From: Actinokineospora auranticolor
GTDB lineage: Bacteria; Actinomycetota; Actinomycetes; Mycobacteriales; Pseudonocardiaceae
Direction: 5' to 3'
Assembly: GCF_002934265.1 (NCBI RefSeq)
Contig: NZ_PTIX01000009.1
Coordinates: 1 to 64,000, forward strand
DNA: 64,000 nucleotides
Shown: positions 3,973 to 52,395 of the stretch, piece by piece
Layout of the letters: each line of letters opens with the position of its first letter
Position numbering within the stretch: position 1 is the first letter of the stretch
Position numbers and translations under genes: made by a program
Notes under the pieces: generated by a model
What the model saw: only the letters and a program-made list of their open reading frames with translations
Told to the model about the DNA's origin: nothing
Database searches by the model: none

Positions 3973-4941
3973 TCAGGACTCCATGACCAGGAGCGCTTGG
4001 CCGGTGAGTGTGCCGCTCGCGGCGGTCTCGATGGCGTTCGCGGCTTCTGGTAATGGGAACGTCCGCGCCACGACGGGTCGCACGGCCTCGGTCTCGACCA
4101 GCTCGCGGAGGACTTCGAGGTCGGCCAAGCGGTCCTTGTGCACCAGGGGGCGGACGCGGATCCCGAGGAACGGCGCGGCAAGCAGGCCACGCAGCCAGCG
4201 GTCGGTGCCCATGAACCAGCGCCCGCCCGTGCCGCCGACGAGGACCAGGGTGCCGCCCCGGTGGAGCACGCGCTTGCAGGTGCGCAGGGGCGGGTTTCCG
4301 TACACGTCGATGAAGACGTCGAAGGGACCGAGGTCGTCGAGTGGTGTGGACCGGTAGTCCACGACGTCGTCCGCGCCCAGTTCCCGTACGAGGTCGGCCT
4401 TTTCGGCGCTGCAGGTCGCGGTCACGTGGGCGCCGAGGTGCTTGGCGATCTGCACCGCGTAGGTGCCGACGCAGCCGGAGGCGCCGGTGATGAGCACTCT
4501 CTGTCCTGATGAGACTTTCCCGGCGTCGCGGACCGCTTGCAGGGCAGCGAATCCCGAGATCGGAACGGCGGCGGCGTGCATCAGGGACAGGTTCTTGGGT
4601 TTGCTCGCCAGGTTGCCTTCGGGGACGGTGGCGTACTCGGCGAAGGCGCCCTTGCACCAGCCGAAGACCTCGTCTCCGACGACGAGGGTCCGAACGTCCG
4701 CGCCGACGGCTTCCACCGTGCCCGCGACCTCCAGTCCCGGGACCGGGTGCGGGCGGCGCAGGCCGGTTGTCGGCCTTGCCAGGTAGGGCAATCCGCGGAT
4801 CAGGTGCCAGTCGGAGCCGACGACCGGCGAGGCCGCCACGCGGAGCAGCACTTCTCCCGGGCCCGGCTCAGGCTTGGGGATTTCCTTGAGGTGGAACACT
4901 TCTTGGGGCGCTCCATAGCGTTCCTGCACGATCGCTCTCAT
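3973..4941 (-). CDS. MDR-family NAD(P)-dependent alcohol dehydrogenase/quinone reductase
   Basis: The 322-residue product is a zinc-independent medium-chain reductase. Its N-terminal GroES-like half has 'PGPGEVLLRVAASPVVGSDWHL' and 'PGLEVAGTVEAVG'. The Rossmann half has 'GQRVLITGASGCVGTYAVQIAKHLGAHVTATCS' around residue 145 and 'GADDVVDYRS'. The structural Cys cluster and the usual catalytic zinc Cys are missing, as in quinone oxidoreductases of this superfamily. It probably reduces quinones or enones with NADPH in the cytoplasm. Its ATG lies 3 bp beyond the stop of the upstream XRE gene, so it is very likely co-transcribed with the XRE/membrane pair. Confidence 0.85.
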   Translation of the reverse strand: MRAIVQERYGAPQEVFHLKEIPKPEPGPGEVLLRVAASPVVGSDWHLIRGLPYLARPTTGLRRPHPVPGLEVAGTVEAVGADVRTLVVGDEVFGWCKGAFAEYATVPEGNLASKPKNLSLMHAAAVPISGFAALQAVRDAGKVSSGQRVLITGASGCVGTYAVQIAKHLGAHVTATCSAEKADLVRELGADDVVDYRSTPLDDLGPFDVFIDVYGNPPLRTCKRVLHRGGTLVLVGGTGGRWFMGTDRWLRGLLAAPFLGIRVRPLVHKDRLADLEVLRELVETEAVRPVVARTFPLPEAANAIETAASGTLTGQALLVMES

Positions 4942-4944
4942 GAC

Positions 4945-5166
4945 CTACTCCTCGTCCGGGTACTGGAAGACATCGTCGATGGGAACGCCGAAGACGCGCG
5001 CGATGCGGAACGCGACCTCCAGCGAGGGCGAGTAGCGCCCCTGCTCGATGGCGATGACCGTCTGCCGGGTGACGTCGACCCGGGCGGCCAGGTCCGCCTG
5101 CGTCATCTCGCCGGTGGCGAAGCGCAGCGCCCGGATCGAGTTGGTGATCCTGGTCGGCTTCCCCAC
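4945..5166 (-). CDS. small XRE-family transcriptional regulator
   Basis: A 73-residue protein consists of little more than one helix-turn-helix: 'MTQADLAARVDVTRQTVIAIEQGRYSPSLEVAFRIARVFG', ending 'IDDVFQYPDEE'. This matches the compact YozG-type XRE regulators. The start is a GTG at 5166 that overlaps the TAG of the upstream membrane-protein gene by one base (TAGTG), so translation is coupled. Such regulators commonly sit with a small multi-pass membrane protein. Two near-identical 19-bp direct repeats in the shared promoter are candidate binding sites. Confidence 0.85.
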   Translation of the reverse strand: MGKPTRITNSIRALRFATGEMTQADLAARVDVTRQTVIAIEQGRYSPSLEVAFRIARVFGVPIDDVFQYPDEE

Positions 5167-5585
5167 TAGAACCCCCGCCGGTAGGCGATGACCTTCGCCG
5201 TCGCCCCGACCGCGGCGGACAGCACGAAGACCGCGTAGATCGCGTTGGCGATCCAGAAGTGCCGCGCCTCGGCCATGGTCAGCGCCAAGGGCAGGACCAT
5301 GCCGACGCCGAGCACGATGCCCGCGAGGTACTCCCCGTGCCGGTCGATCTCGCGGTCCCGCACGTCCGCGCGGTGACGTTCGCCCGGCTTGGCAATGCCG
5401 AGCCCGATGCCGACGACGATGGCGGCGACGATCGAGGCGCCGATCGCCCAGAGCATGGGGGCGACGTAGTCGACGTCCGACCAGGGGCCCGCGCCCGCCT
5501 TGGCGATGATCACGGCCAGGTAGCCGAGGAAGGCGACGGCGCTGATCACCAGATATGCCCAGGTCTGCTTCTCCTGGTACGACAT
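5166..5585 (-). CDS. four-helix membrane protein paired with XRE regulator
   Basis: The 139-residue protein has four hydrophobic segments: about residues 10-29, 43-64, 87-105 and 109-132. A charged loop of the type GERHRADVRDREIDRHGEY lies between helices 2 and 3. No enzymatic motif is visible. Paired small XRE and DUF2178-like membrane genes are frequent in Gram-positive bacteria, and this is the likeliest class. It is the first gene of a three-gene operon (membrane protein, XRE, MDR reductase) read from the promoter at about 5620-5650. Its function is unknown. Confidence 0.7.
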   Translation of the reverse strand: MSYQEKQTWAYLVISAVAFLGYLAVIIAKAGAGPWSDVDYVAPMLWAIGASIVAAIVVGIGLGIAKPGERHRADVRDREIDRHGEYLAGIVLGVGMVLPLALTMAEARHFWIANAIYAVFVLSAAVGATAKVIAYRRGF

Positions 5586-5596
5586 GCGCGCTCCCG

Positions 5597-5649
5597 ATGT
5601 AAAGCAAGTTTGACATCACCAAGGTAAGCAATGTTCGACAGTATGTCAA
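5597..5649 (-). promoter_or_regulatory. promoter with two direct-repeat operators
   Basis: On the minus strand TTGACA (5649-5644), a 17-nt spacer and TACCTT (5626-5621) form a good sigma-70-type promoter. Two related 19-mers, TGTCGAACATTGCTTACCT (5640-5622) and TGTCAAACTTGCTTTACAT (5615-5597), overlap and follow it with a 25-bp period. This is a plausible autoregulatory site for the XRE protein; the binding is inference. Confidence 0.6.
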
Positions 5650-5688
5650 GAATCTTTGACTCGCGATGCCGCGGGGTGGCCGGACCGA

Positions 5689-6573
5689 TCACTCGGGTCG
5701 GTCGACCGGGATCGCGAGGATGTCGAGGAACGCGGAGGCGGCGGGGCTGCGGCCCGCGCGGTTCCAGACCAGGTACTCGACCCGTCCGGGGGCGTCGGGG
5801 ACGGGGATCGTGGTGACGTCGGTCAAGCGGGGGACGTAGTTCGACGCGAACATCGAGACGCCCAGGTTCTGCTGGACGAGGCGGGCCATGAGGTCGGCGT
5901 TGGTCACCTCGAAGGCCACGTCCCGGGTGAGGCCCGCGGCGGCGAAGGCCTGGTCGGTTTGGGCTCGACCGGCGGTGCCTGCGGGGAGGTCGACGAAGAC
6001 CTCCTCCGCGAGCCGGGCGAGGGTGACCGACGGTTCGCCCGCCAAGGGGTGCGCCGGGGCGACCACCGCCACCAGGCGGTCGCGGGCCAGGATGTGGGCG
6101 GCGACGCCCTGCGGGTGGGCGGTGGTCGGCAGCCCGAGGAACGCCACGTCGATCGCGCCCACGCGGACCTGCTCGACCAGGTCGTCACTCGCGCCCACCC
6201 CCAGGCTCACCCGGACGTGGGGGTAGCGCTCGCGGAAGTCGCGCAGGGCGGCGGGCAGGTCGACGGCGGCGACGGTGGGGATGAGACCGACCGCCAGCCT
6301 GCCGCGCACCTCCCCCACGGCGGCGGCGACCTCGGCCGCCGCCCGCTCGGCCGCGTCCAGGCACTGGCGGGCGGCGGGCAGGAACGCCGCCCCGGCCTGC
6401 GTCAGGCGGACGCGGCGGCTGGTGCGCTCGAAGAGCTTCGCGCCCAGTTCGCGTTCCAGGCGGGCGATCTGGTGGCTGAGCGCGGACTGCACGACCAGGC
6501 ACCGCTCGGCGGCGCGGGTGAAGCTGTTCGTCTCGGCGACCGCCACGACGTAGCGCAGCTGCTGGAGTTCCAC
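5689..6573 (-). CDS. LysR-family transcriptional regulator
   Basis: The 294-residue protein starts with VELQQLRYVVAVAE. The winged HTH follows ('SFTRAAERCLVVQSALSHQIARLERELGAKLFER'), then a co-inducer-binding domain from about residue 90 ('LAVGLIPTVAAVDLPAALRDF' ... 'GVSMFASNYVPRL'). I chose the GTG at 6573 because the family normally begins within a few residues of 'LxxLRYFVAVAE'; an upstream ATG at 6612 would add 13 unrelated residues. It is transcribed away from an EamA exporter gene, the usual arrangement for a regulator and its target. A short perfect dyad, GATCCA-TCT-TGGATC (6575-6589), lies at its start codon. The ligand is unknown. Confidence 0.88.
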   Translation of the reverse strand: MELQQLRYVVAVAETNSFTRAAERCLVVQSALSHQIARLERELGAKLFERTSRRVRLTQAGAAFLPAARQCLDAAERAAAEVAAAVGEVRGRLAVGLIPTVAAVDLPAALRDFRERYPHVRVSLGVGASDDLVEQVRVGAIDVAFLGLPTTAHPQGVAAHILARDRLVAVVAPAHPLAGEPSVTLARLAEEVFVDLPAGTAGRAQTDQAFAAAGLTRDVAFEVTNADLMARLVQQNLGVSMFASNYVPRLTDVTTIPVPDAPGRVEYLVWNRAGRSPAASAFLDILAIPVDRPE

Positions 6574-10041: not shown

Positions 10042-10794
10042 TTACGCCCAGGTACCGGTCGCGCTACCGGCGGTGGCGAGCTGCGACTGCTGGTAGAGGG
10101 CGCTGAGGGCGGCTTGGCTGATCGAGCCTGCGGACTGGGTCCGGGCGCTCATCGCCAGGTCGAAGGCCTGGCGCGGGGTGGTGTCGTCCGGCTTCGGCGG
10201 CCCCTCGATGATCTTGTCGGCGAGCGCGTCGACCTGGTCGTCGGATAGCGAGTCGTCGCCCGCTTTGAGGGCGTCGGTGATGGTGGTCTTGAGGGTCGCC
10301 GCGTCCATGCCGTTGGCGGCGGCGACGTCGGTCAGGCTCGTGCCGGACCGGAGTTCGTCCTGGAGCTCCTCGGAGCTGAGGCCGAGCGCGTCGGCGACGG
10401 AGTCGAGGGCGTCGTCCACCTTCTGGTCGTGACCGCCGCCACCCGGGGGCGGGCCGGCGGGGCGGGCGCCACCGGGTCCACCGGGCCCGCCGCCGTGCCC
10501 CGGCCCGGCGACGACCTTCTGCGCGACCTCCTTGGCCTTGGTCGCGGAGAGGGTGCTGTCCGCGCTGGTCAGCGCGTCGCTGATGGCGGTGGTGAGGGTG
10601 TCGGTGCTGACGCCCTTGCTCTGCGCCAGCGTGGACATGCTCTGCCCGCTGCCGAGCGCGCCGCGCAGGTCGTCGGTGCTCATGCCCAACGCCTTGGCGG
10701 CGGCGTCGAAGGCCTTGCGCATCGACGACTGGCCGTTGTCGGCCCGCTGCGCGTACGCCAGGCTCTGGCTACCGGAGATGGAACTGACAGTCAT
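10042..10794 (-). CDS. two-repeat alpha-helical protein of unknown function
   Basis: The 250-residue protein contains two copies of a ~60-residue helical unit. The first has 'ALGMSTDDLRGALGSGQSMSTLAQSKGVS'; the second has 'ALGLSSEELQDELRSGTSLTDVAAANGMD'. Each ends in a 'Lsxxxxxxlaxxiixgp' helix. A flexible Gly/Pro-rich linker (GHGGGPGGPGGARPAGPPPG) joins them, and an Ala/Gln-rich tail follows. This 'GxSLxxxAxxxGV' unit occurs in many secreted or wall-linked proteins of Gram-positive bacteria, but no signal peptide is visible here. The start at 10794 follows an AGGTTAGGT site. The function is unknown. Confidence 0.75.
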   Translation of the reverse strand: MTVSSISGSQSLAYAQRADNGQSSMRKAFDAAAKALGMSTDDLRGALGSGQSMSTLAQSKGVSTDTLTTAISDALTSADSTLSATKAKEVAQKVVAGPGHGGGPGGPGGARPAGPPPGGGGHDQKVDDALDSVADALGLSSEELQDELRSGTSLTDVAAANGMDAATLKTTITDALKAGDDSLSDDQVDALADKIIEGPPKPDDTTPRQAFDLAMSARTQSAGSISQAALSALYQQSQLATAGSATGTWA

Positions 10795-11142
10795 ACCTAA
10801 CCTGCCTCGCGGTGGGGTTTCGCTTGCACCGGGACAGTCGGCACGGCGGTTCACCCGGTGGAGGGATCTCGGCCGTCCCACAGGCAACTCATACCGGCGC
10901 ACAGCTCAGCCCCAGGTTTCCCGCGCACGGCGGCGAACGCCGGGCAGGCGGAGCGGCCGACTCCGCACGGGGGCGGAAATCCCCCTGGCCGCCGGGCACG
11001 ACACGGCTATGGACGAAAGCTTGTCATTCGGGACAAGGGCGGCGCGTTGCGGATAGCGTTGATCCCCGCACGTCTCGTGGCGTGCCACAGGTCAGGTTCC
11101 GCGCCGCCGCGGCGGGCGGCACCGCGCACCCGAGGGAGGCCC
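10795..11142. other. divergent intergenic region before the TIR gene
   Basis: This 348-bp region separates the leftward repeat-protein gene from the rightward cyclase-CNB-TIR gene. It holds a small dyad, CTTGTC-ATTCGG-GACAAG (11020-11037), about 110 bp before the TIR start, and a good Shine-Dalgarno (GAGGGAGG) just before the GTG at 11143. I cannot assign -35/-10 boxes with confidence. Confidence 0.35.
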
Positions 11143-13161
11143 GTGGAGCGGGTGGCAGCGGCGGAGTTCCAGGACGTCGCCGTGGTGTCCTGCGACATCA
11201 TCGGCCACTCGGCCGCGAACGAGGCGGAGCAGGTGCGGCGGGTGGCCGCGATCAACGACATCGTGGCCGCGGCGATCCGCCGTGACGCCCGGCACATCGT
11301 CTGGTCCTCGGGCGGCGACGGCGGCCACGTGGTGTTCTTCGGCGACGAGTGGCAGGCGGACGCCGTGCGGCTCGTCGCGGACCTGTCCGGCTGGGCCCGC
11401 GACGAACGGCTCACCTTGCGCGTCACCGGCCACGTCGGCCGGGTCGCGACCCTGGTCGGCGCGGACGGTCGCGTCCAGGCGGTGGGCACCGGGATCAACT
11501 TCGCGGGCTGGTTGATCCGCCAGGCCACGGGGCACGGGATCCTCGTCTCCGACCGCTTCCGGCAGGAGGTCGCGGCGGCGCCGTCCACCGAGGACGTCGT
11601 GTTCCACGAGGAGCGCCTGCTCGTCGACCGCAACTCCCACCCCCAGCTGCTGTTCCTGATGTCCCTCGACCGGGTGCGGTCGCGGTGGGCCGAGGCCGAG
11701 CAGGACGACTACGCCTCGCTCCGGCAGAGCCTGGCCGAGCAGAACGGGTGGGAGGCGCTCTACTACTCGAAGCGGATCTCCCAGATCAACGCCAGGGACC
11801 AGGACGTCACCCGGACCCTCGAACTGGTCACCGGGATCCTGAAGTCCGGGACCCCGGGGAACCGGAGCTTCCTCGAGTCGTTGCGGGCCAACGAACTCAC
11901 CGAGATGCTGAAGCTCGGCCACCTCGTCGAGCGCGGCCCCGGCGAGGTGATCTGCCGCGTCGGGGACCCCGGTGAGTCGATGTTCGTGATCCTGCGCGGC
12001 GAGGTCGGTGTCTACAACCTGGAGGGCAAGGGCTACGGCGGCACCGCGAAACCCAAGCACGTGCAGCGGGCGGGTGAGGTCGTCGGCGAGCTCGCGACCG
12101 CGTTGAAACGCCCCCGGACGGCCGACCTCGTCGCCATATCGGACGTGGCGCTGCTGTCGTTCATCAGCGAGGAGATCAAACACAAGCTGGCGGGCACCGA
12201 CGCGGGCAAGGACGCGGCGCGCCAGTACGAGCTGTTCATCACCGACCGCGTGCTCCAGCACACGATCCAGGCCGCGCCGTACCTGCTGGGCCCGAGCCGC
12301 CTCGGGCCGCTCAGCGTCGCCCCCACGCACAGCACCTCGCGCGTCGGCGCGCAGGAAGCGTGGGAGGCCACGGTGCGCGACCTGCTCCCCCACACCGAGT
12401 TGGTCGAGGTGGCCGCGGAGGGCTTCACGCTCGACGTCGGCCAAGTGGCGCGGGAGGTGTCCAAGGACCGCCCGCGGCACGGTCTGTTCATCCTCGTGTC
12501 GGGCACCGTCATGGCGCCCACGGCGGCGAGGTTGTCGGGCGCCCAATGCCCCCTGCTGTGGGTGGACGTGCCCAACCTCCTCGTCCAGTCGCCGCACACC
12601 TACCGGCGGGAGCAGGAGCCCATCCTGGTGCTCTGGATCGGCGCCAGCGGTATCGACCGACTCGAGCTGCAGCAACGCGTGGAACTGCTGCGGGCGCTGA
12701 AGGACACCGTCGGCGGGGTGCCGTCCCACTTCGAGTACGACGTCTTCCTCTGCCACTCCAGCAAGGACAAGGACGTCGTCCTGGACGTCAAGGAGCGGCT
12801 GTGGAACGAGTTCGGCATCCGCTCCTGGTACGACGACGTGGAACTGACCCCTTCCGTCTCGACGCGCCGGACCATCGAGAACGGGTTGCGGACCAGTCGG
12901 TTCTTCCTGGTGTGCGCGAGCGCGAACGTCAACGCCTCCGCGTGGGCGAACCGGGAGATCGACTCGGTCATCTCGAGCGACGTGAAGCGGCAGGGCAACG
13001 GCCCGACGGTGCTGGTGCTCAAGCTCTACGAGGAGGAGAGCAACGACGAGGCGATCCCCCTGATCTTCCGGGGGTCCAAGCGGTTGAACCTGAGACGCGC
13101 GGGTGACTTCGAGAAGCTGGCGCACCACATCCTGTCCGCCAAGGGCGCCGGGAATGGGTGA
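11143..13161 (+). CDS. nucleotide cyclase-like / cNMP-binding / TIR fusion protein (Pycsar-like)
   Basis: The 672-residue protein joins three signalling modules. Residues ~10-145 resemble a class III nucleotide cyclase: 'VSCDIIGHSA' (Asp18) and 'GGDGGHVVFF' (Asp59) give the two metal-binding Asp, and 'GTGINFAG' keeps the conserved Asn119. The position normally held by the transition-state Arg is Trp123. Residues ~260-345 form a cyclic-nucleotide-binding domain ('RVGDPGESMFVILRGEVGVY', 'AGEVVGELATALKRPRTADLVA'). Residues ~530-670 are a TIR domain ('YDVFLCHSSKDKDVV', 'SAWANREID' with the catalytic-type Glu605). In Pycsar defence the cyclase and the CNB-TIR NADase are separate proteins; here they are fused. 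The start GTG has an ideal GAGGGAGG site. The gene overlaps the downstream STAND gene by 8 nt. Confidence 0.82.
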   Translation: MERVAAAEFQDVAVVSCDIIGHSAANEAEQVRRVAAINDIVAAAIRRDARHIVWSSGGDGGHVVFFGDEWQADAVRLVADLSGWARDERLTLRVTGHVGRVATLVGADGRVQAVGTGINFAGWLIRQATGHGILVSDRFRQEVAAAPSTEDVVFHEERLLVDRNSHPQLLFLMSLDRVRSRWAEAEQDDYASLRQSLAEQNGWEALYYSKRISQINARDQDVTRTLELVTGILKSGTPGNRSFLESLRANELTEMLKLGHLVERGPGEVICRVGDPGESMFVILRGEVGVYNLEGKGYGGTAKPKHVQRAGEVVGELATALKRPRTADLVAISDVALLSFISEEIKHKLAGTDAGKDAARQYELFITDRVLQHTIQAAPYLLGPSRLGPLSVAPTHSTSRVGAQEAWEATVRDLLPHTELVEVAAEGFTLDVGQVAREVSKDRPRHGLFILVSGTVMAPTAARLSGAQCPLLWVDVPNLLVQSPHTYRREQEPILVLWIGASGIDRLELQQRVELLRALKDTVGGVPSHFEYDVFLCHSSKDKDVVLDVKERLWNEFGIRSWYDDVELTPSVSTRRTIENGLRTSRFFLVCASANVNASAWANREIDSVISSDVKRQGNGPTVLVLKLYEEESNDEAIPLIFRGSKRLNLRRAGDFEKLAHHILSAKGAGNG

Positions 13162-15256
13162 CACCGACCGCAACACGGTGGCGGCGCCCACCGCGGTGGC
13201 GGTGCAGGCGGGTCGCGTCGACGGGTCGGTCCACGTCCACACGGTGTACTCGGCCGCCCGCGAACCGTCGCGGGTCGTTCCCCACCAGTTGCCGAGCCAC
13301 GCGCGGGGGTTGGTCGGTCGCGACGCGGAGTTCGCCTGGTTGGACGCACGGCTCGGCGACGGGCGGCCGGGGACCGCGGTGGTGACCGGTCCCGGCGGCG
13401 TGGGCAAGACCGCGCTCGTCGTGGGCTGGGCCGCCACCCGGCTGGACGAGTTCCCGGACGGGCAGTTGTACGTCGACCTCCGGGGGCACGGGCCGGACAC
13501 GCCGCTGGACCCCCATGACGTCCTCGGCGGGTTCTTGCGCGATCTCGGCGTGGCGGACCGTGAGGTGCCGCGGAGTCGGCACGAGCGGGTGGGCCGGTAC
13601 CGCAGTGTCACGCACCGGCGCAGGCTGCTGGTGGTACTGGACAACGCGGTGGACGAGGACCAGGTGCGTCCGCTGCTGCCCGGGCCGGGCGCGGTGGTGG
13701 TGACCAGCCGGGCGGTGCTGTCCGGGCTGGCGGTCCGCCACGAGGCCGAGATCCTGGAACTGGACCTGCTGGACGCGCGGCACGGGCTGGAGTTGTTGCG
13801 CGCGGCGGTGGGCGCGCGGGCGGTGCGGGAACCCGCCGTCGCCGAACTCGTCGAGTACTGCGGGGGCCTGCCGCTGGCGCTGCGGATCGTCGCGGAGCTC
13901 GCGCGGTCCCGCCCCGGCGCGCCGTTGGCCGGGTTGGCGGAGGAGCTGCGGCACGAACAGCACCGGTTGGACGTGCTGGAGGTGGTGGGCGACGCGCGGT
14001 CGTCGATCCGCCCGGTGCTGTCCTGGTCGCTGGACCGGGTGCCCGTCGAGGTCAACCGGGCGTTCCGGCTGATCGGGGCGCACCCCACGGGCGAGGTGGA
14101 CGTGCCCGCGGTCGCGGCGCTCTGCGCCGTCCCGCTCAGCCGGGCCGGACGGCTGCTGCGGGCCCTGGTCGGCGCGCACCTGATCGGCGAGCCGCGCCCC
14201 GGCCGGTTCGCGGCCCACGACCTGTCGCGCCTCCACGCGGTCGAGTTGGCGACCGCCGATCCCGACGGCACCGCCGCCGCCCGCGTGCGGCTGTTCGACC
14301 ACGTGCTGCACACCGCGGACCGGGCCGACCGGCTGGTCACCCCGAACCGCTACCGCGTTCCCCTGGACGGCGACGCGACGGGCGCGGTGGGGTTCGCGGA
14401 CTACGACGCGGCCCTGACCTGGCTGCACTCGCACTGGCGGGACGCGGTCGCCCTGTGCGCGCTCGACGGCACCGGGCTCGACGCGCGGCGGTGGCAACTC
14501 GCGTACACCTGGCGGGGCTACTTCTTCCTCACCAAGCGGTGGGACGCCTGGATCGCCAGCCACCGCCACGCCCTGGCCGCCTGCCTCCGCCTCGACGACC
14601 GCCACGCCGAGGCGCGGACCCGCAACAACCTGGGCCGCGCGCTGCTCGAGACGGGGCGGACCGAGCAGGCGACAGCGCACTTCGAGGCCGCCCAGCGGCT
14701 GTTCGAGACCGTGGGCGACCGACACGGGTGGAGCAACGCGGTCGCCAACCAGGCGGTCCTGCGGCGGAGGGCGGGCGACCTGGCGGAGGCGTTGCGGCTC
14801 AACCAGCTCGCGCTGGACTACTACCTGGCGGTGGGCGCGCGCCGCAACACCGCGATCACCTGGCGCAGTCGGGCGAAGACGCGGATCGAGGCGGGAGCGT
14901 TGGACGAGGCCGCGGCGGACCTGGACCGCGCGGTCGAGATCTTCGCGCGGCTGGGTCTCGCCATCGACCTGGCGGAGGCGCACAACCTGCGCGGCACGAT
15001 CGCCGCCCGCCGCGGCGACCCGGAGCGCGCGAAGCAGGAACACCTCGCGGCACTGGACGCCTGCCGCGCGTGCGGGAGCCGCTTCGAGGAGGCCAAGGCG
15101 CTCCGGTACCTCGGACACCTGGCCGCGAACGAGGGCGCCATGGCGACCGCGGTCGCCTACCTCACCTCCGCCGCCTCCCTCCACCAGGACATGGGATCAC
15201 CGGAGGCAGCGGTACTCGCAGAGGAGATCCGCGCACTGGTCGACCACCACACCTGA
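13154..15256 (+). CDS. STAND NTPase with NB-ARC and TPR domains
   Basis: The 700-residue product has a short N-terminal 'AVQAGRVDGSVHVHTVY' segment common in actinobacterial STAND proteins. An NB-ARC ATPase follows: Walker A 'TGPGGVGKTAL' (Lys85), Walker B 'RRLLVVLDNAVD' near 160, and 'CGGLPLALRIVAEL' near 240. A winged-helix region and a C-terminal array of tetratricopeptide repeats (from about residue 470, e.g. 'ARTRNNLGRALLETGRTEQATAHFEAA') complete it. There is no N-terminal SARP or effector domain, so the effector is probably supplied by the TIR protein whose gene it overlaps by 8 nt (ATGGGTGA). It is probably the sensing partner of the TIR protein; an ordinary AfsR-like regulatory role is the alternative. 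Confidence 0.85.
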   Translation: MGDTDRNTVAAPTAVAVQAGRVDGSVHVHTVYSAAREPSRVVPHQLPSHARGLVGRDAEFAWLDARLGDGRPGTAVVTGPGGVGKTALVVGWAATRLDEFPDGQLYVDLRGHGPDTPLDPHDVLGGFLRDLGVADREVPRSRHERVGRYRSVTHRRRLLVVLDNAVDEDQVRPLLPGPGAVVVTSRAVLSGLAVRHEAEILELDLLDARHGLELLRAAVGARAVREPAVAELVEYCGGLPLALRIVAELARSRPGAPLAGLAEELRHEQHRLDVLEVVGDARSSIRPVLSWSLDRVPVEVNRAFRLIGAHPTGEVDVPAVAALCAVPLSRAGRLLRALVGAHLIGEPRPGRFAAHDLSRLHAVELATADPDGTAAARVRLFDHVLHTADRADRLVTPNRYRVPLDGDATGAVGFADYDAALTWLHSHWRDAVALCALDGTGLDARRWQLAYTWRGYFFLTKRWDAWIASHRHALAACLRLDDRHAEARTRNNLGRALLETGRTEQATAHFEAAQRLFETVGDRHGWSNAVANQAVLRRRAGDLAEALRLNQLALDYYLAVGARRNTAITWRSRAKTRIEAGALDEAAADLDRAVEIFARLGLAIDLAEAHNLRGTIAARRGDPERAKQEHLAALDACRACGSRFEEAKALRYLGHLAANEGAMATAVAYLTSAASLHQDMGSPEAAVLAEEIRALVDHHT

Positions 15257-15385: not shown

Positions 15386-16084
15386 GTGCGCGCCGGGCAC
15401 GAACTGGTCCGGGACGGGCTGGTGGCGCGCGTGCTGTTCGTGAACCTGCGCGGATTCGATCCCGACCCGGCCGCGGTGCTGGACGGGTTCCTGCGCCTGC
15501 TCGGGATGCCCGGTCGGCGGATCCCGCACGACCTGTCCCCCCGGATCGCCGCCTACCGGGCCCGGCTGGCGGGCATCGGCACCCTGATCGTGTTGGACGA
15601 CGCCGCCACCGCCGAGCAGGTCCGCCCGCTGCTGCCCGGCGTCGCGGGCTGCCCGGTCCTGATCACCACCGGGCGCAGCCTCACCACCCTGGCGGGCGCC
15701 ACGCACCTGACGGTGACCGCGTTCCCCCCGGGGGACGCCATGGACGTCCGCTACCCGGACGAAACCCATCGACGTCCCCGGATACCCCCACCGCCAACGC
15801 CCATTCCCGCCCTGGCCGACGAGACCGGTGCCCGCGCCTGGCTGGACACCGAACGCCCCACCCTGGTCGCGGTCACCGCCCACACCGCCACCCGCGGCCA
15901 GCCCGCCCACACCATCCGGTTCGCCGCCACCCCGCACCGCTACCTCATCGGCGGGCACCCCACCGACCCCCTGGCGGTCCACGCGCACGCCGCGCGCGCC
16001 GCCCGCCACACCGGTCTCGGCGCACCGGAAGCCGACACGATCCGCGACCACCTCACCACCCTCGACCACCCTTCGACCCGGTGA
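15386..16084 (+). pseudogene. NB-ARC/AfsR-like remnant without P-loop
   Basis: The frame encodes the middle of an NB-ARC ATPase ('ARVLFVNLRGFDPDPAAVLDGFLRLLG', Walker B-like 'GTLIVLDDAATAEQVRPLLPG', 'CPVLITTGRSL'). It jumps after 'PPGDA' straight to a TPR-lead segment ('GARAWLDTERPTLVAVTAHTA', 'YLIGGHPTDPLAVHAHAARAAR'). The Walker A loop, the GLPLAL region and most TPRs are missing. The natural reading is a decayed paralogue of the upstream STAND gene type with a large internal deletion. It could still be expressed, but it cannot hydrolyse ATP. It ends 6 bp from the end of narI, tail to tail. Confidence 0.65.
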
Positions 16085-46143: not shown

Positions 46144-49100
46144 TCAGCAAACTCGCTGGGTGCCGATGTAGTAGGTCATCGAGTTGTCCGGTGCGTACAT
46201 CTCCTCGGCCGCGCAGGGGATCTGCATGGTGGTTTCGATGAACTGGTAGTGGTCCGCCTGGTGATCCATCTTGGGTAGCCCCACGGCGTCGAGACCACCG
46301 TTGATGATGCCGGCGAAACCTCCCTGTTCGCCGGTGATCGGGTTGCGTGTGGCGGACGCGAACGAGACCTTGTTGCTGGCGATCACCTTGACCGTGGCGT
46401 GGTCGTCCTTCACGTCCATCACCTGGTAGTCGACGGTGAAGGAACCCATGAAGTGCTCGATGTCGTCCGCACTCTCCCACCCGTCGACCGCGGTGGCGAT
46501 GGACCAGCCGTCCGCACCCATCCTGAGGAAGTTGAAGAATGGGTCGGTCTCGACGGTGTGTCGCAGCGATTTGTAGGGTTGGTACTCGTTGCCTCCCGGT
46601 CCGTAGACCCCGAACTTCATCTCATCCCGGATCATGTCCTGGACGTGCTTGGCCGCCGAGGTCTGCTTCCAGTCCTCGGTGATCCGGTCGCCGTCCTGGT
46701 GCAGGTACACCCGCGGGGTGTTGATTTTCTGATCGCTGAGGTACCAGTCCAGGAACATGTCGCGGACGCCGTAGTCCTTGCGGTGCCACGTCTCGGCGTT
46801 GGCGGGGATGTCGAAGTGGCTCCTCGCCTTCTCCCGCAGCGCCAGGGTCCGGACGATGTTCACCACGCGGCTGTACAGGGTCATGAAGAAGTTGACCAGA
46901 CCGAAGAACTCCCCGGACGGGTCGCTGTTGGTGAGTGGGTTGTCACCGCCATAGGAATACCCGGTCATCTGCTGCGGGTTCCCGCTGTCGAGCACCGGGT
47001 CCACGCTGAGGAACCGCCCGAGGACCGGGTCGTACTCGCGGGCTCCGACATCCACCAGCCCGGTCGTGGAACTCACCGGCATGTTGAGGAAGCCGCGCTG
47101 GTGGGGCCACGTCCCCTGGCCCGACCCGATCTCGTTGCCGTACGGGTCCAGGTCACGGCGGGTCACGGCGAAGCCGGTCATCGCCAAGGTGACCGTCGCG
47201 GTGGCGTGCGGATCCGACACCACGTACTTCGGGTCGGCGTTGGCCACTCGGAGAGCCACCGTGACCTCACCGAAGGTGTAGTACCGGGTACCGGTCACGA
47301 TGCCGGTGGCGTTGTCCCGCTTGAGTTCCTGCCCCGGCAGGTACAACGTCGCCGATGTCGGGTCGCGGCGCAGCAACTGCTTTCCGTCGGCGTCGTACAC
47401 GTAACTCGTGGTCCCGGCGGAACCCACCACTGTGGACAACTTGTTCTCTTCGTTCCAGGTAAGGGTCTCCTGTCCCGAACCGCTGGTGCGCTGGGTGGTG
47501 TTGCCAGACCCGTCATAGGCGTAGCTCGTCGACGCGGAGCCGGTCGTGGTCCCGCTCAGCGAGTGCGGCTTCGCCGCGCCCGCGGCCGGGTAGGCGTAGT
47601 TGGTGACCTTGTTCGCCGCACCGCCGACGCCGTGCTCGGTCTGGTTGTCCCGCGAACCGCCGACCAGGAACGACCACGACTTCCAATACGGGTTCGGGCC
47701 GCCCACCGTCGCCGACGACGGCGCCGCCGCACAGTCATCGGTCGCGGTCCACGCGTCGGACAGGCGGTCGAGCTGGTCGTAGCGGTAGCACTCGGTCCGC
47801 ACCGGCGAACCGGCAGGACCCCTGGTGTTGACCGTGCGCGTTCGGTTGCCCGCGGCGTCGTAGTAGTACCGCACGTCGTCGACCTGCTGCGCACTCGCCT
47901 GCTGCGCGGAGAGGTTCACGTTGGTGAGCCTCCGTGTCTGCGCGTCGTATCCGTAGCTGAGCCAAGCCTTGTTGTTCGACGGGCCCAGGGTCAACTGCGA
48001 AGCCTCGTCATACGGCGTGTAGGTCGACGCCGAGACGTAGGCGTTGTAGCCCGTCATGGTCCTGGGCTTGCTGAACTTGTCATAGCCGATGACGATCGCC
48101 TCCCCGGGGAGGCCACCTGCCGCGTGCGGCTGCATCATCGTGGTCAGACCGGTGGAGCTGTAGGCGTACTGGGTCGTGTAGGTGCTGCCCAGCGTGCCCT
48201 GGCTCGCGGGGATCTTGGTCACGATCTTGTTCGGGTTGCCCGAGGTGTCGTACGCCGTGTAGGCCGACTCGAACTTGCCGTCCGCCGTGTACCTGGTGGA
48301 TGTGTACGGCTTGCCGACGCCGTTGGTGGCCCCGTCGAACGTCCACGACGCCAGCGGCGCTCGCGTCGGTCCCGCCCCCGCGTACGCGGCCGTCTTGCGG
48401 CCGAGGGCGTCGTAGTCGTAGGTGAGCACCTGCCCGCGACCATCGGTGGTCGAGGTGACCTGCCCCGCCAGGTCGTAGGTGGTGGTGGTCTGACCGGAGT
48501 CGGGGTCCACCTGCTTGGTCAGCTGACCGATCGGGTCGTACTCGAAGGTCCAGACGACCCCGGCCGGGTCGGTCACCTTGTTCTGCTTGCCCGCGGCGTT
48601 GAACTCGTACTTGGTGGCCTGGAAGGTACCGCCGGACACCACGTCGCCGGTGATCGTCGGCGCGGCGGTGTACTGCCGCGCTTCGACGTTGTTGCCCCGC
48701 ACGTCGGTCAGCGCGGTGCTGGTCACGCCACCGGTCGGTGGGACGACCGTCTTCCGGTCACCGCCGTAGATCGTCGAGGTGAACCAGGTCTGCTGGTCTC
48801 CCTTGTACGCGGCCTCTCGCACAACCCGACCGGTGCCGTCGTAGTCGGTCAGCGTCCGGTCGTCGACCTCGGACGACGCGACACCGACCAGGTTGGTCGA
48901 TGGCGCGCCCTGGATCAGGTAGCGGTTGTTGGTCAACCGCTTCCAGCCGTGGGAATCGTAGAACGCCTCGTTGACGACACGCAGCCCGTCGCGAGCCTCC
49001 ACTTGCGACTGGCGCAGCTGCCCGAACGCGTCGAACAGCTTCACCTCGGTCACGTACTCCTGCGCGGTTCCGGTGTCCACCAGCCGCTTGTTGGTGACCG

Positions 49101-52100
49101 CGAGCGGCCCGTCGGTGCGTACCAGGTACTCGTAGACGAGAGTCGCCTGGTTCGACGCCTTCGGCTGCTGCCCGGGTTTCCACACCGCGGTCAACCTCCC
49201 CACGGCGTCGTACTCGAGGTCGGCCCGTCTGCCACCCTCGTCGACGGCCACGACGCGCTTGCCCCGGCTGGGCTCGAACTCCTCGGTCGACTTCTGGTTC
49301 TTGCCGTTCGTCTTGACCGTCTTGGTGTGCAGACCACCGTCCGCCGGAGTGTACTCCAGTGCCACAGTGCGATTCAGACCGTCCGTGGTCGACAGGGTGC
49401 GCCCCGAGGCGTCGTAGGTCGCGGTGCTCGTCGTGGCGAACACGGGCACCCCCGCGTTGACCGAGGTCACGGTGTCGCTCCTGGTGGCGTTACCCGCACC
49501 GGGCACCGCGCCGAGGCTCAATTGCCCGTCGTAGTACGTGCGACTGCCCTTGAACACGCCCGTCTGCGCGACCCCGGATGGTGGGCACACTTGTTCCGAG
49601 GAAAGGATTTCCCTCGGCTTGTCGCGGATCCACGACACCGTGTTGTCCGCGTACTTGGTCGTGGTGCACACATCCACGACGCCGGTCCCGGACTCGGTGG
49701 TGGCCTCCACCCGACCGGTCGTGTCGTACCGGTTTGTCGTGGTGAGCGTCTTGGTACCGCCCGCGGCGAGGTTGGTGACCGTCCGCGTGCGGTTCTCCTT
49801 GACGATGGTGGCGACGAGCGGGTTCAGGCCCGGCCGGGCGCGCGACCCGGTCGTGGCGACGAGCACGGGTTCGGTGACCTTGGTCGTGGTCCACGGCCCC
49901 GACTCCCCGTCGAAGGTCCGGACCTCGTACTCGGTGTCCACGAACAGCGGGTTGTCCGGCACGGTCTCGCCGAGGCTGTTCGACACGGTCATCGTCCTGG
50001 TGCCGCCGTTGGGCAGCCGGTCGCCATCCATACCCCGGTAGTAGGTCGTGCGGACGAGTGTGCGCCGGTCCACGGGGAGGCTGTCGATCCGGTTCGCCAC
50101 GTCACCGGTGCGGACCTCGACTTGCTGGAAGCCGCGGAACTGGCCGTAAGTGCGGTTTTCCGGTTTGACCAACTCGTTGTCGTCGTAGTGCCAGGCGGGT
50201 GCGCCGAGGTAGGCGTACTCGGTCAGCTGCCCGGGAGACAGCTCGTTGCGGTCGTCGACGCGCACGGATTCCACGACGTACTTGTGGAAATAGTCCAAGA
50301 CCGGGTTCTGCACGCCTTCCGGTGTCCAGTACACCGGATAGCACAGCTTGGTGTTGTTCGCCGGGTCGCTCGGCACATCGGTCGCGGTGCACCCCGTGCG
50401 GTAGGTGACGACCACGGCCGACCCGGCGTCGGTGTTGATGTTGGTGAGGCGCCAGTGCGCGAGGGTGGGCATGTTGTTGTAGCCCTGCACGCGGTTGGGC
50501 ATCAGCTGACCCGCGAAACTGATCGGCGGCGCGGTGATCTGCGTGCCGCTGCCGTACGCGGTGTGGGTTATGCCGCGCAGCTGGAGCGAGCGGTCACCCA
50601 CGGTGGGGTAGTCGAAGGTCGGCTCGTACCGGTCGACCGGAACCGGTCCCGCGCCCTTGTCGATCCGGGTGGTGATGGCCGACAACCGTTTCGTGGACCA
50701 GAATGACGGGCCGTGGTTGTTGCAGACCGCGCCCTGCTTGCACTCCTGGTCGGTGGGCACGTCCGGCCAGGACGTCGCGGTCGCTGTCGTGCGCTGCGCG
50801 GGATCGCAGGTGATCGCCCCGCCGGGGACGCACCGTTCGGCCACGTCGAAGGCAACGCTGTTGGGCGGTGTCGCGCTGTAGATCGAACCACCGATCTCGC
50901 GCAGGCCGTAGTCGACTCGCCTCAGCGATCCCGCTCGGGTGTAGCGCACGCCGGTGGTTTGCTTGTCGGCGCCGTAGTAGTTGTATTCGGGTGAGTAGTA
51001 GTACGCGCTCGCGTTGCCGTGCGGATCCTTGACGTAGTCCAGGTTCCACCGCCACGCCATGTCGCACTTGCCCGCGGCCTGGCACGGGTCTCCGCTCTTG
51101 CGGTGGTAGACCGGCACCGTCCAGGTCGAGTCGGTCACCTCCTGGGAAGTCCGGCCGGGCAGCGAGTGCAGGCCGAAGTAGTAAGCGACGCCGTCGGTGT
51201 TGGTGATCTTCCAGTACTCGCCGTTGTAGGCGCCGTTGGTGGCTCCCGTGAGCAACTCGACACGCGCGCCGTTGTCGTTGGACGCGTGCCAGGTGCCGGT
51301 GGCGTCGTCGCGGACGAGTTCGGCGGACATCTCGCCCAGGTTCAACGACACCACGTGGCCCGCCCAGCAGTAGTCGCCGGTTTGCTGGGCCGCGGGCAGC
51401 GTCTTGTCATCGGCGCAGGCCCGGTAGACGCGTTCGATGGAACCGGGCGAGTAGCCCCACCCGGAACCGGCCCACGACGCCTGGTTGTTCGTCGCGGCGG
51501 TGAGACCGTCGACCGCCGCCGAGTTGTACCCGAGGCTGATCTTGGGAGCCAGCTCACCCGCCGCGACCGGCGGGACCTCGATGGGGTAGTCCCAGGTGAA
51601 CGCGCCGGTGCTGCCGGTCACCGACCACCGGCCGGATGGTTTGAGGGAACTGGCCTCGTAGTCACCCGACGGCCCGGCCGCGTCGGCGACGACCGCGAGC
51701 ACGACCGGGGCGCCGCGGGTGGGCGCGCGCAGTCCCACGACCTCCTCGACCTGGTCGGTCGACAGCGCGACTGTGGCGCCGACGACCTGCCCTGTCGCGT
51801 CGTTCGACGACGGCAACGGCGTCTGGACCTGGCACCGCGGCTGTTCCGGGGTGTCGAGCACGCACGCCGGGAGAGCGGCAAGGCGCAGGCGGGAGCCGTA
51901 ATCGCCGCCGATGGCCTCGTGGAAGCCGGAGTAGTCCATCCCCACCGCCACCTCGCCGCCGGTGGAGGTGTCGGGCGTGACCGACACGACCACGCCCGCG
52001 ACCCCGGCGCGCGTGCTCAACTCCTGGTCGGCGACCTGCACGTGGAACGAGCCCGCGACGGTGCCCCGCGCCGACAGCGTGACCGGCAGGCCGGGAACGC

Positions 52101-52395
52101 GCCCCCGGGCGGAGGCGGCCACGGTGGCCTCCCCCGCGACGGGCCACGCCGTGGCGAGTGGCCGTTCCGGCGCGGGCGCGGTGGGTGGCTCGACGTTTCG
52201 CTTCGGCGGCTGGTACTCGGTGTGCGGGAGGACCTTCTCCGCGGTCGCCGACGGCGGCCCGGCGTCAACGCCGGTAGACACAACAGCGTCTACGAGACCC
52301 GCCGCCAGGACGACCGCGCACGACAGGGCAAGCAGTCGTCCGCGGCGGTCGGGTGGGTGCTCCGCCAGGAAGGGCGGAAGGGGTTCTGTTCGCAT
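46144..52395 (-). CDS. giant RHS/YD-repeat secreted protein with distinct C-terminal domain
   Basis: The 2083-residue protein begins MRTEPLPPFLAEHPPDRRGRL followed by a hydrophobic segment (ALSCAVVLAAGLVDAVV), an export signal. A long beta-rich shell follows with many YD repeats (e.g. 'YDTTGRVEATTESG', 'YDAVGRLTAVWKPGQ', 'YDYDALGRKTAAYAG', 'YDGSGNTTQRTSG'). It ends in the RHS core boundary 'YDPVLGRFLSVDPVLDSGNPQQMTGYSYGGDNPLTNSDPSG'. Beyond this lie 255 residues unlike the repeats (residues ~1829-2083; 'EKARSHFDIPANAETWHRKDYGVRDMFLDWYLSD', 'MGSFTVDYQVMDVKDDHATVKVIASNKVSFASATRNP'), the position of polymorphic toxin tips. Its activity is not recognisable. It is divergent from the LamG gene. Confidence 0.9.
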   Translation of the reverse strand: MRTEPLPPFLAEHPPDRRGRLLALSCAVVLAAGLVDAVVSTGVDAGPPSATAEKVLPHTEYQPPKRNVEPPTAPAPERPLATAWPVAGEATVAASARGRVPGLPVTLSARGTVAGSFHVQVADQELSTRAGVAGVVVSVTPDTSTGGEVAVGMDYSGFHEAIGGDYGSRLRLAALPACVLDTPEQPRCQVQTPLPSSNDATGQVVGATVALSTDQVEEVVGLRAPTRGAPVVLAVVADAAGPSGDYEASSLKPSGRWSVTGSTGAFTWDYPIEVPPVAAGELAPKISLGYNSAAVDGLTAATNNQASWAGSGWGYSPGSIERVYRACADDKTLPAAQQTGDYCWAGHVVSLNLGEMSAELVRDDATGTWHASNDNGARVELLTGATNGAYNGEYWKITNTDGVAYYFGLHSLPGRTSQEVTDSTWTVPVYHRKSGDPCQAAGKCDMAWRWNLDYVKDPHGNASAYYYSPEYNYYGADKQTTGVRYTRAGSLRRVDYGLREIGGSIYSATPPNSVAFDVAERCVPGGAITCDPAQRTTATATSWPDVPTDQECKQGAVCNNHGPSFWSTKRLSAITTRIDKGAGPVPVDRYEPTFDYPTVGDRSLQLRGITHTAYGSGTQITAPPISFAGQLMPNRVQGYNNMPTLAHWRLTNINTDAGSAVVVTYRTGCTATDVPSDPANNTKLCYPVYWTPEGVQNPVLDYFHKYVVESVRVDDRNELSPGQLTEYAYLGAPAWHYDDNELVKPENRTYGQFRGFQQVEVRTGDVANRIDSLPVDRRTLVRTTYYRGMDGDRLPNGGTRTMTVSNSLGETVPDNPLFVDTEYEVRTFDGESGPWTTTKVTEPVLVATTGSRARPGLNPLVATIVKENRTRTVTNLAAGGTKTLTTTNRYDTTGRVEATTESGTGVVDVCTTTKYADNTVSWIRDKPREILSSEQVCPPSGVAQTGVFKGSRTYYDGQLSLGAVPGAGNATRSDTVTSVNAGVPVFATTSTATYDASGRTLSTTDGLNRTVALEYTPADGGLHTKTVKTNGKNQKSTEEFEPSRGKRVVAVDEGGRRADLEYDAVGRLTAVWKPGQQPKASNQATLVYEYLVRTDGPLAVTNKRLVDTGTAQEYVTEVKLFDAFGQLRQSQVEARDGLRVVNEAFYDSHGWKRLTNNRYLIQGAPSTNLVGVASSEVDDRTLTDYDGTGRVVREAAYKGDQQTWFTSTIYGGDRKTVVPPTGGVTSTALTDVRGNNVEARQYTAAPTITGDVVSGGTFQATKYEFNAAGKQNKVTDPAGVVWTFEYDPIGQLTKQVDPDSGQTTTTYDLAGQVTSTTDGRGQVLTYDYDALGRKTAAYAGAGPTRAPLASWTFDGATNGVGKPYTSTRYTADGKFESAYTAYDTSGNPNKIVTKIPASQGTLGSTYTTQYAYSSTGLTTMMQPHAAGGLPGEAIVIGYDKFSKPRTMTGYNAYVSASTYTPYDEASQLTLGPSNNKAWLSYGYDAQTRRLTNVNLSAQQASAQQVDDVRYYYDAAGNRTRTVNTRGPAGSPVRTECYRYDQLDRLSDAWTATDDCAAAPSSATVGGPNPYWKSWSFLVGGSRDNQTEHGVGGAANKVTNYAYPAAGAAKPHSLSGTTTGSASTSYAYDGSGNTTQRTSGSGQETLTWNEENKLSTVVGSAGTTSYVYDADGKQLLRRDPTSATLYLPGQELKRDNATGIVTGTRYYTFGEVTVALRVANADPKYVVSDPHATATVTLAMTGFAVTRRDLDPYGNEIGSGQGTWPHQRGFLNMPVSSTTGLVDVGAREYDPVLGRFLSVDPVLDSGNPQQMTGYSYGGDNPLTNSDPSGEFFGLVNFFMTLYSRVVNIVRTLALREKARSHFDIPANAETWHRKDYGVRDMFLDWYLSDQKINTPRVYLHQDGDRITEDWKQTSAAKHVQDMIRDEMKFGVYGPGGNEYQPYKSLRHTVETDPFFNFLRMGADGWSIATAVDGWESADDIEHFMGSFTVDYQVMDVKDDHATVKVIASNKVSFASATRNPITGEQGGFAGIINGGLDAVGLPKMDHQADHYQFIETTMQIPCAAEEMYAPDNSMTYYIGTQRVC

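Follow-up and report, generated by a model that had tools for sequence, protein, structure and literature searches.

The window (the whole 64,000-nucleotide stretch of Actinokineospora auranticolor DNA that was analysed) carries a gene in which a divergent class III cyclase homology domain (CHD), a cyclic-nucleotide-binding domain (CNB), a middle domain and a TIR domain are joined in one protein. This gene overlaps the gene of an NB-ARC-TPR protein, that is, an NLR-type STAND protein (Table 1). Judged from their sequences, the fusion and the NLR look like an unusual nucleotide-controlled death switch. The reading preferred here, held with evenly balanced confidence, is a two-gene NLR-TIR conflict unit composed of an NLR trigger and a TIR effector with an internal cyclic-nucleotide checkpoint; its role would probably be anti-phage or altruistic death. 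The NB-ARC-TPR protein would act as the trigger, sensing a cue, oligomerising and gathering the TIR proteins, and the fusion protein would be the effector, whose clustered TIR domains would cleave NAD+. The checkpoint would lie within the effector, the CNB having to bind, or to lose, a cyclic nucleotide before the TIR fires. The CHD is expected to bind metal-NTP and could either produce the CNB ligand in cis, at a slow rate or with an unusual NTP as substrate, or report the nucleotide state non-catalytically. Within the NLR-TIR reading, catalysis in cis is given slightly less than an even chance.

Table 1. Features of the fusion gene and its partner in the window
Feature	Position	Strand	Remarks
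Fusion gene CHD - linker - CNB - middle domain - TIR, 672 aa	11143..13161	+	Open reading frame as described in the sequence-only reading
Divergent class III cyclase homology domain (CHD), residues 8-172	11164..11658	+	D18, D59, N119; W123 at the Arg position
CNB, residues 266-345, intact phosphate-binding cassette G315, E316, A318, R325, T326	11938..12177	+	
Middle domain, residues 380-529, without Pfam match	12280..12729	+	
TIR domain, residues 534-657, with Glu605	12742..13113	+	
Partner NB-ARC-TPR (NLR-type STAND) protein, 700 aa, 8-base overlap with the fusion gene	13154..15256	+	
RHIM/BASS3-like tail of the NLR, VAVQAGRVDGSVHVH	13196..13240	+	Named by eye; the motif name is a lead
NB-ARC domain of the partner	13367..13912	+	
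Probable NB-ARC fragment without P-loop, downstream of the partner	15386..16084	+	By eye; no Pfam match

In the Pfam scan of the 672-aa fusion protein, TIR_2 and cNMP_binding were recognised with strong E-values and no cyclase was called. The top PADLOC matches were TIR models from defence proteins, candidate or known (PDC-S66, 6e-18; ThsB, 9e-11). When 200 genomes of this family were searched first, 80 of them in all had matches, many being CNB-only or TIR-only, with four further near-full-length matches (65, 40, 45 and 44% identity). An N-terminal profile of these five proteins was used to search 390 genomes of the family, and 11 members were found, in 11 genomes and 4 of the 46 genera, all within one family. 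The order sample (397 genomes) yielded five genomes of the own family and the cyclase L032, the phylum sample (396 genomes) the own genome and the cyclase L033 only, and the class sample (394 genomes, stricter cut-off) the own genome only; these samples overlap, and since only 5 to 9 first-look candidates were scored per genome, relatives that are rarer or more distant may have escaped detection. No relative of the fusion appeared in the viral contigs searched. The plasmid search gave one TIR-only match, and a single-sequence search of genome contigs one CNB-only match.

The sequence-only reading had described a cyclase-like domain, a CNB and a TIR fused in one protein and had proposed looking for the same order in other genomes. 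The fusion is confirmed and the order does occur elsewhere: CHD-CNB-TIR is kept in nine of the 11 members, and CHD-CNB-middle in all of them. The further remark that no described fusion of this type was known to that reading agrees with the open-licence literature, where titles and abstract starts, with partial coverage, gave no description of a CHD-CNB-TIR fusion.

CHD identity to the window is 59-67% for six members and 44-48% for four, and the lowest pairwise value among the 11 rows is 43.6%. Over the 11 members, mean pairwise identities are 61% (CNB region), 55% (CHD), 41% (middle domain) and 39% (linker); for the TIR the value is 51%, taken over the nine TIR-bearing members. In each of five pairs, dN/dS was higher in the CHD (0.30-0.57) than in the CNB (0.06-0.33); the CHD is therefore the less constrained of the two. 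Only 11 copies were found, an NB-ARC gene fragment lies downstream and one member is without the TIR Glu, which together might be taken as signs of a rare, fortuitous or decaying fusion without coordinated function. This explanation is extremely improbable, however, given that CHD-CNB-middle is preserved in 11 of 11 copies at CHD identities to the window down to 44-48%, and that all 24 per-domain dN/dS estimates, covering all domains in the five pairs, are below 0.7. The fragment, which directly follows the partner gene, is likely a decayed relative or copy of the NLR.

The output end of the protein is less uniform. TIR_2 matches nine of the 11 members, and in loci L025 and L026 an amyloid-like tail (IQAG..LHVH and VQID..LHVH) placed after the middle domain replaces the TIR. 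The Glu605 equivalent is present in eight of the nine TIR domains, bearing out the TIR with Glu605 of the sequence-only reading, and is Gly in L043. The fusion of L043, alone among the 11 members, also matches the death-like domain bDLD3 (6e-21), which was placed in an N-terminal extension unique to this locus; the upstream gene, which overlaps the fusion gene (L043, 7616-8650, plus strand), encodes a PNP_UDP phosphorylase with a C-terminal bDLD3 (5e-24). Passages of PMC8195603 describe bDLD3 with TIR and PNP effectors and link bDLD3 effectors to STAND ATPases. The PNP-bDLD3 gene beside the Glu-less TIR is an apparent hand-over of the effector role. Since the output end varies among the members, CHD-CNB-middle is the constant part and the output end is exchangeable. 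Of the signs that the CHD-CNB cassette may be the regulated core, this exchange is the strongest.

On profile evidence, the N-terminal domain belongs to the class III cyclase superfamily, as its cyclase-like appearance had suggested. In a profile-profile comparison run with controls, the family CHD profile matched a class III cyclase profile at E 2.5e-9; the latter consisted of 21 rows (L032 as the first row, L033, L001 and 18 of the 29 loci L046-L074), among which L032 and L033 had themselves been found with the fusion-family profile. Against PDB sequences, the 11-member CHD profile gave the Ma1120 cyclase as its top match (E 7.7e-5), and a 5-row profile gave Rv1264 only (E 0.8). A Foldseek search with a weak, single-sequence model of the CHD likewise placed it with the class III cyclases: all 50 matches listed were cyclases, and the Anabaena uridylate cyclase 8jsz stood at rank 21. 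VIA-align 2 on the CHD did not tell cyclases apart from other ferredoxin-like folds.

Both metal Asp (D18 and D59) and Asn119, already pointed out for the window protein, are kept in all 11 members. The observation of Trp123 at the position of the transition-state Arg also stands, but not as a copy-specific defect: this Arg is found in none of the 11 members, the position being W in nine, N in one and A in one, so that its loss is a trait of the family. Among the positions tested, S16, D18, W54, G57, D59, H62, R93, H97, Q112, N119, A121 and R140 are invariant in the 11 members, and position 55 is S or A. The base-selecting positions of the window CHD are Q112 and W54/S55, and none of the 11 CHDs has the Lys/Asp pair that selects the base. 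In the alignment with Ma1120 (residue numbers from passages of PMC4215837), R168 corresponds to W123, A164 to N119 and D157 to Q112, counted from N119; K101 aligns to W54 or S55, hinging on one gap. The fusion family resembles the class III nucleotidyl cyclases Ma1120, Rv1900c and Rv1625c in fold and profile, and has the two metal Asp and the Asn in place. It differs from them in reading N-x3-W/N/A for N-x3-R, in having W54 or S/A55 and Q112 for the purine-selecting Lys and Asp, and in its private motif W-S/A-S-G-G-D-G-G-H.

Departures of this kind have parallels. Ma1120 is without the Asn yet active, its Arg being kept (passages of PMC4215837). The phosphate-binding Arg position is Gln, His, Tyr or Cys in predicted Bacteroidetes cyclases (passages of PMC4886424), and catalytically inactive cNMP cyclase domains have been reported in actinobacterial and other conflict systems (passages of PMC7159879); as far as these sources go, both catalytic outcomes thus have precedents. 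That no member has the Arg speaks against a cyclase of the standard kind but leaves room for a slow or unusual one. The private pocket, fully conserved and lacking the usual Arg, points either to a cyclase chemistry that is new or to a conserved nucleotide-sensing pseudocyclase.

The pseudocyclase could be taken further, the CHD serving for dimerisation or NTP sensing and the CNB reading cellular cAMP, in a stress or development switch without phage specificity. The missing Arg and Lys/Asp pair, the inactive cyclase domains known from conflict systems (passages of PMC7159879) and the faster evolution of the CHD relative to the CNB would agree with such a switch, as would L001, the one class III cyclase domain above the Pfam cut-off in the window's genome, where K, D, N and R are all present. 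It is nevertheless decidedly unlikely: the metal Asp, Asn119 and the private pocket residues are invariant over deep divergence, suggesting a working nucleotide site, and a patchy distribution (11 of 390 genomes, 4 of 46 genera) with differing neighbourhoods is more what one would expect of an accessory conflict gene than of a core regulator.

The CNB reported in the sequence-only reading has its phosphate-binding cassette preserved, with R325 in 11 of 11 members and E316 in 10, Asp standing in its place in L045; PF00027 (cNMP_binding) matches all 11. The window CNB has the Glu/Arg cassette described for PycTIR, where it consists of G86, E87 and R97 (passages of PMC11224242), and both the PADLOC PycTIR model (8e-7) and the PDB chain 8jsj (PycTIR, 7e-4) match the CNB region. 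For the middle domain, a PDB profile search gave non-significant matches alone (best E 0.071), and an AlphaFold model of residues 231-529 was unusable (pLDDT 35). A second CNB in this domain was considered and rejected, the hhalign probability of the middle domain against the CNB being 2.9.

These resemblances raise the question of a self-contained Pycsar acting in cis, in which infection would cause the CHD to make a nucleotide, the CNB of the same protein or of its oligomer would perceive it, the TIR would follow, and the NLR would be a mere neighbour. The invariant metal Asp and Asn, the CNB-TIR order, which is that of PycTIR, together with the PycTIR and 8jsj matches, the uridylate cyclase in the fold search and the six of 11 members without an adjacent NLR are consistent with it. 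It is unlikely all the same, because the Arg is absent in all members, the partner-type NLR recurs, two members retain CHD and CNB without a TIR, and the Phe that stands two before the first metal Asp in EaPycC and AnPycC (passages of PMC11224242) is Ser16 here. According to the same passages of PMC11224242, the first metal Asp is D102 in EaPycC and D62 in AnPycC, and the base-selecting residues are F100, R142 and Q144 in EaPycC and F60, K104 and F109 in AnPycC. The residues at these offsets from the metal Asp in the fusion family (S16, S/A55, G57 and H62) do not match them, which is weak evidence, as the comparison goes by offset and not by structure and the residues vary between PycC clades.

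All 15 PADLOC matches listed for the fusion protein start at residue 251 or later and none lies in the CHD; the PycC model PDLC00734 matches residues 251-349 only, that is, the CNB region. Judging by match positions in loci L075-L094, this model seems to span a CNB and then a cyclase domain. It matches 32 of 60 genomes, where many of the hits look like ordinary class III cyclases, and alone it therefore neither singles out Pycsar nor serves for the PycC residue comparison; our own motif pattern fits 12 of its 20 loci (L075-L094). CNB and TIR share one reading frame in the window, and L045 is the only locus where the neighbours scanned include a separate TIR gene of the CAP12/Pycsar type.

In comparison with Pycsar (PycC and PycTIR), the window unit shares a class III cyclase-type domain, the G-E...R cassette of the CNB and a TIR after the CNB. 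It differs in being one gene and not two, in having Ser for Phe two before the first metal Asp and no transition-state Arg, in the additional middle domain (about 150 aa) that separates CNB from TIR, and in its NLR partner. The designation as a one-polypeptide Pycsar-like candidate is retained as to the fusion, but it overlooked the overlapping NB-ARC-TPR gene and the NLRs of the same subgroup at the fusion in five of 11 members; membership of Pycsar itself was not borne out by the sequence, the CHD having no PADLOC model match and the PycC base-selecting residues not being found at the same offsets. By the sequence comparisons, the unit is not filed as Pycsar, as no PADLOC profile reaches the cyclase part and there is no separate effector. 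It may still work partly like Pycsar, from cyclic nucleotide to CNB to TIR, and partly like the NLR-TIR operons, whose gene context it has.

For the partner protein, Pfam gave NB-ARC (1.8e-10) and TPR_12 (8.7e-15), and PADLOC one weak TPR match. An NLR of this type directly follows the fusion in the window, L023, L040 and L041, and in L045 it comes after one other gene, hence in five of the 11 members, which speaks for a two-gene unit; the intervening gene of L045 encodes the CAP12/Pycsar-type TIR protein (PF10137, 1e-23). Among themselves, the five fusion-linked NLRs show 45-85% identity. No other NB-ARC protein of the window's genome exceeds 38.6% (286 bits) against any of them, in a comparison covering 16 other readable proteins with the best nine matches per query listed (17 of 30 fetched NB-ARC loci passed the P-loop pattern, one of them being the partner NLR). 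The fusion-linked NLRs form, by these identities, a distinct subgroup. With 38 NB-ARC matches in the 8.43 Mb of the window's genome, chance adjacency of an NLR is about 0.5% per neighbouring gene, assuming about 1 gene per kb and treating related loci as separate, so that L023 and L041 are counted separately although they share one site.

Against a two-gene unit, no partner-type NLR stands beside the fusion in the other six members (L024, L025, L026, L042, L043 and L044). The NB-ARC gene of L043, at a distance of about 4.5 kb, is a different one that resembles other NB-ARC proteins more closely, and in L042 the position that holds the NLR in its close relative L040 is empty. The NLR is consequently either dispensable or acting from elsewhere. 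The tree of the fusion proteins, in which deep support is weak (70/74), separates the NLR-bearing L045 from the remaining members with an NLR, which means that the association was ancestral and then lost, or was regained. Ancestral association with loss is the favoured reading, aided by the comparison of L042 with L040.

The NLR was also sought in 46 picked genomes, 11 with the fusion and 35 without. Every one of them had some NB-ARC-type match to the partner at E 1e-60 or better, and the top matches were the five fusion loci and G195, G007, G179, G184 and G083 (41-46%). Members of the NLR subgroup (at least 43% identity over at least 660 residues) were present in four of the 35 picked fusion-less genomes. 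Among seven loci opened with subgroup NLRs elsewhere, three have a TIR. It is fused to the NLR in L146. In L149, which belongs to the genome of the TIR-less member L025, it is the gene next to the NLR (TIR_2, 5e-16), and in L144 it lies in a divergent neighbour with a weak score of 22.7 bits, below Pfam's cut-off. In L147, L148, L150 and L151 no TIR was seen by eye within about 1.5 kb of the NLR.

The partner NLR starts with a VQAG..VHVH tail (VAVQAGRVDGSVHVH), tentatively named RHIM/BASS3-like. BASS3 is described as a RHIM-related amyloid signalling motif of multicellular bacteria (passages of PMC7885112). Similar tails were seen by eye before other NB-ARC proteins of the same genome (L117, L128, L134 and L136 among the examples), and the tail is therefore not specific to the fusion-NLR unit; a strict tail pattern fits the partner alone among 17 NB-ARC proteins. 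The window fusion has no recognised tail matching that of the NLR, and the tailed fusions of L025 and L026 have no adjacent NLR. The NLR/STAND-TIR conflict operons, whose signalling tails are effector-associated or amyloid (Kaur et al. 2020, 2021; BASS systems), resemble the unit in the overlap of an NB-ARC-TPR gene with a TIR effector gene, in the RHIM/BASS3-like or bDLD3 parts found in the fusion family and in the PNP effector at one locus. They differ from it in that the fusion effector has CHD and CNB upstream of the TIR and that the window TIR protein itself is without a recognised tail.

The neighbours of the unit in the window look ordinary by eye, with LysR, transporter and YceI-like types upstream and a nitrate reductase operon downstream. 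The proposed search for a defence island gave a mixed context in the family, but no recognisable island in the window, where six neighbouring proteins other than the NLR had no PADLOC match at E 0.001. Neither these neighbours nor the viral contigs gave a link to phages, which counts against a role in phage defence. In G903, the sole further genome in the genus to contain both flanking genes, the flanks are on different contigs, and in L096-L098 the narI-like gene has other genes after it; the unit thus lies at a synteny break and is not a simple insertion. By eye, sites are shared by L023, L041 and L024, by L025 and L026, and by L040 and L042.

Several further genes were noted at these loci. 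The small protein encoded at 10042-10794 (minus strand) of the window has weak HTH-type Pfam matches in a longer frame, and its gene has a patchy distribution in the genus, occurring in 7 of 16 genomes when the own genome is counted. Farther along the window are a 2045-aa RHS-repeat protein (46144-52281, minus strand) and, near it, an 1805-aa protein with a laminin-G-like domain (53061-58478, plus strand). In L041, the gene after the NLR encodes a TROVE-domain protein (4933-6552, minus strand). The genes beside the distant fusion member L045 (7470-8786, minus strand; 11088-14981, plus strand) include the CAP12/Pycsar-type TIR protein and, divergently, a kinase-like protein (Pfam score below the cut-off) with a similar N-terminal tail, followed by an AAA_11/AAA_12 helicase-type protein.

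Beyond the two-gene NLR-TIR unit, it is conceivable though doubtful that messenger maker, receptor and NAD+-destroying effector are combined in one molecule, the nucleotide staying in the complex and the NLR deciding the firing. In its boldest form, the cyclase would silence the TIR and the unit would sense phage enzymes that destroy cyclic mononucleotides, as a cis, NLR-coupled counterpart of Panoptes (OptS-OptE). The possible likeness lies in a restraining nucleotide made by the unit itself. Panoptes differs in having an mCpol domain and a transmembrane effector in separate genes; homology is not expected. A Panoptes-like guard could also be imagined as one protein, its CHD making or retaining a cyclic mononucleotide that holds the TIR off until phage destruction of the ligand releases it. 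The OptS nucleotide represses OptE, and the authors speculate on systems guarding Pycsar pools (passages of PMC12657218); an Arg-less cyclase of low activity would suit a low, constant ligand level, and a cis fusion would give stoichiometric self-restraint. Such a guard is very unlikely, as nothing in the sequences points to it directly, OptS belongs to the mCpol domains rather than the class III cyclases, and the NLR is left unexplained.

If the preferred reading of a two-gene NLR-TIR unit with a nucleotide checkpoint is true, cyclic-nucleotide signalling and NLR-type receptors, branches of bacterial immunity that have been separate until now, would come together in a single pair of genes. 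The question whether a second messenger can act in cis as an internal checkpoint would then become directly testable. Either outcome for the CHD, new cyclase chemistry or a conserved nucleotide-sensing pseudocyclase, would be informative.
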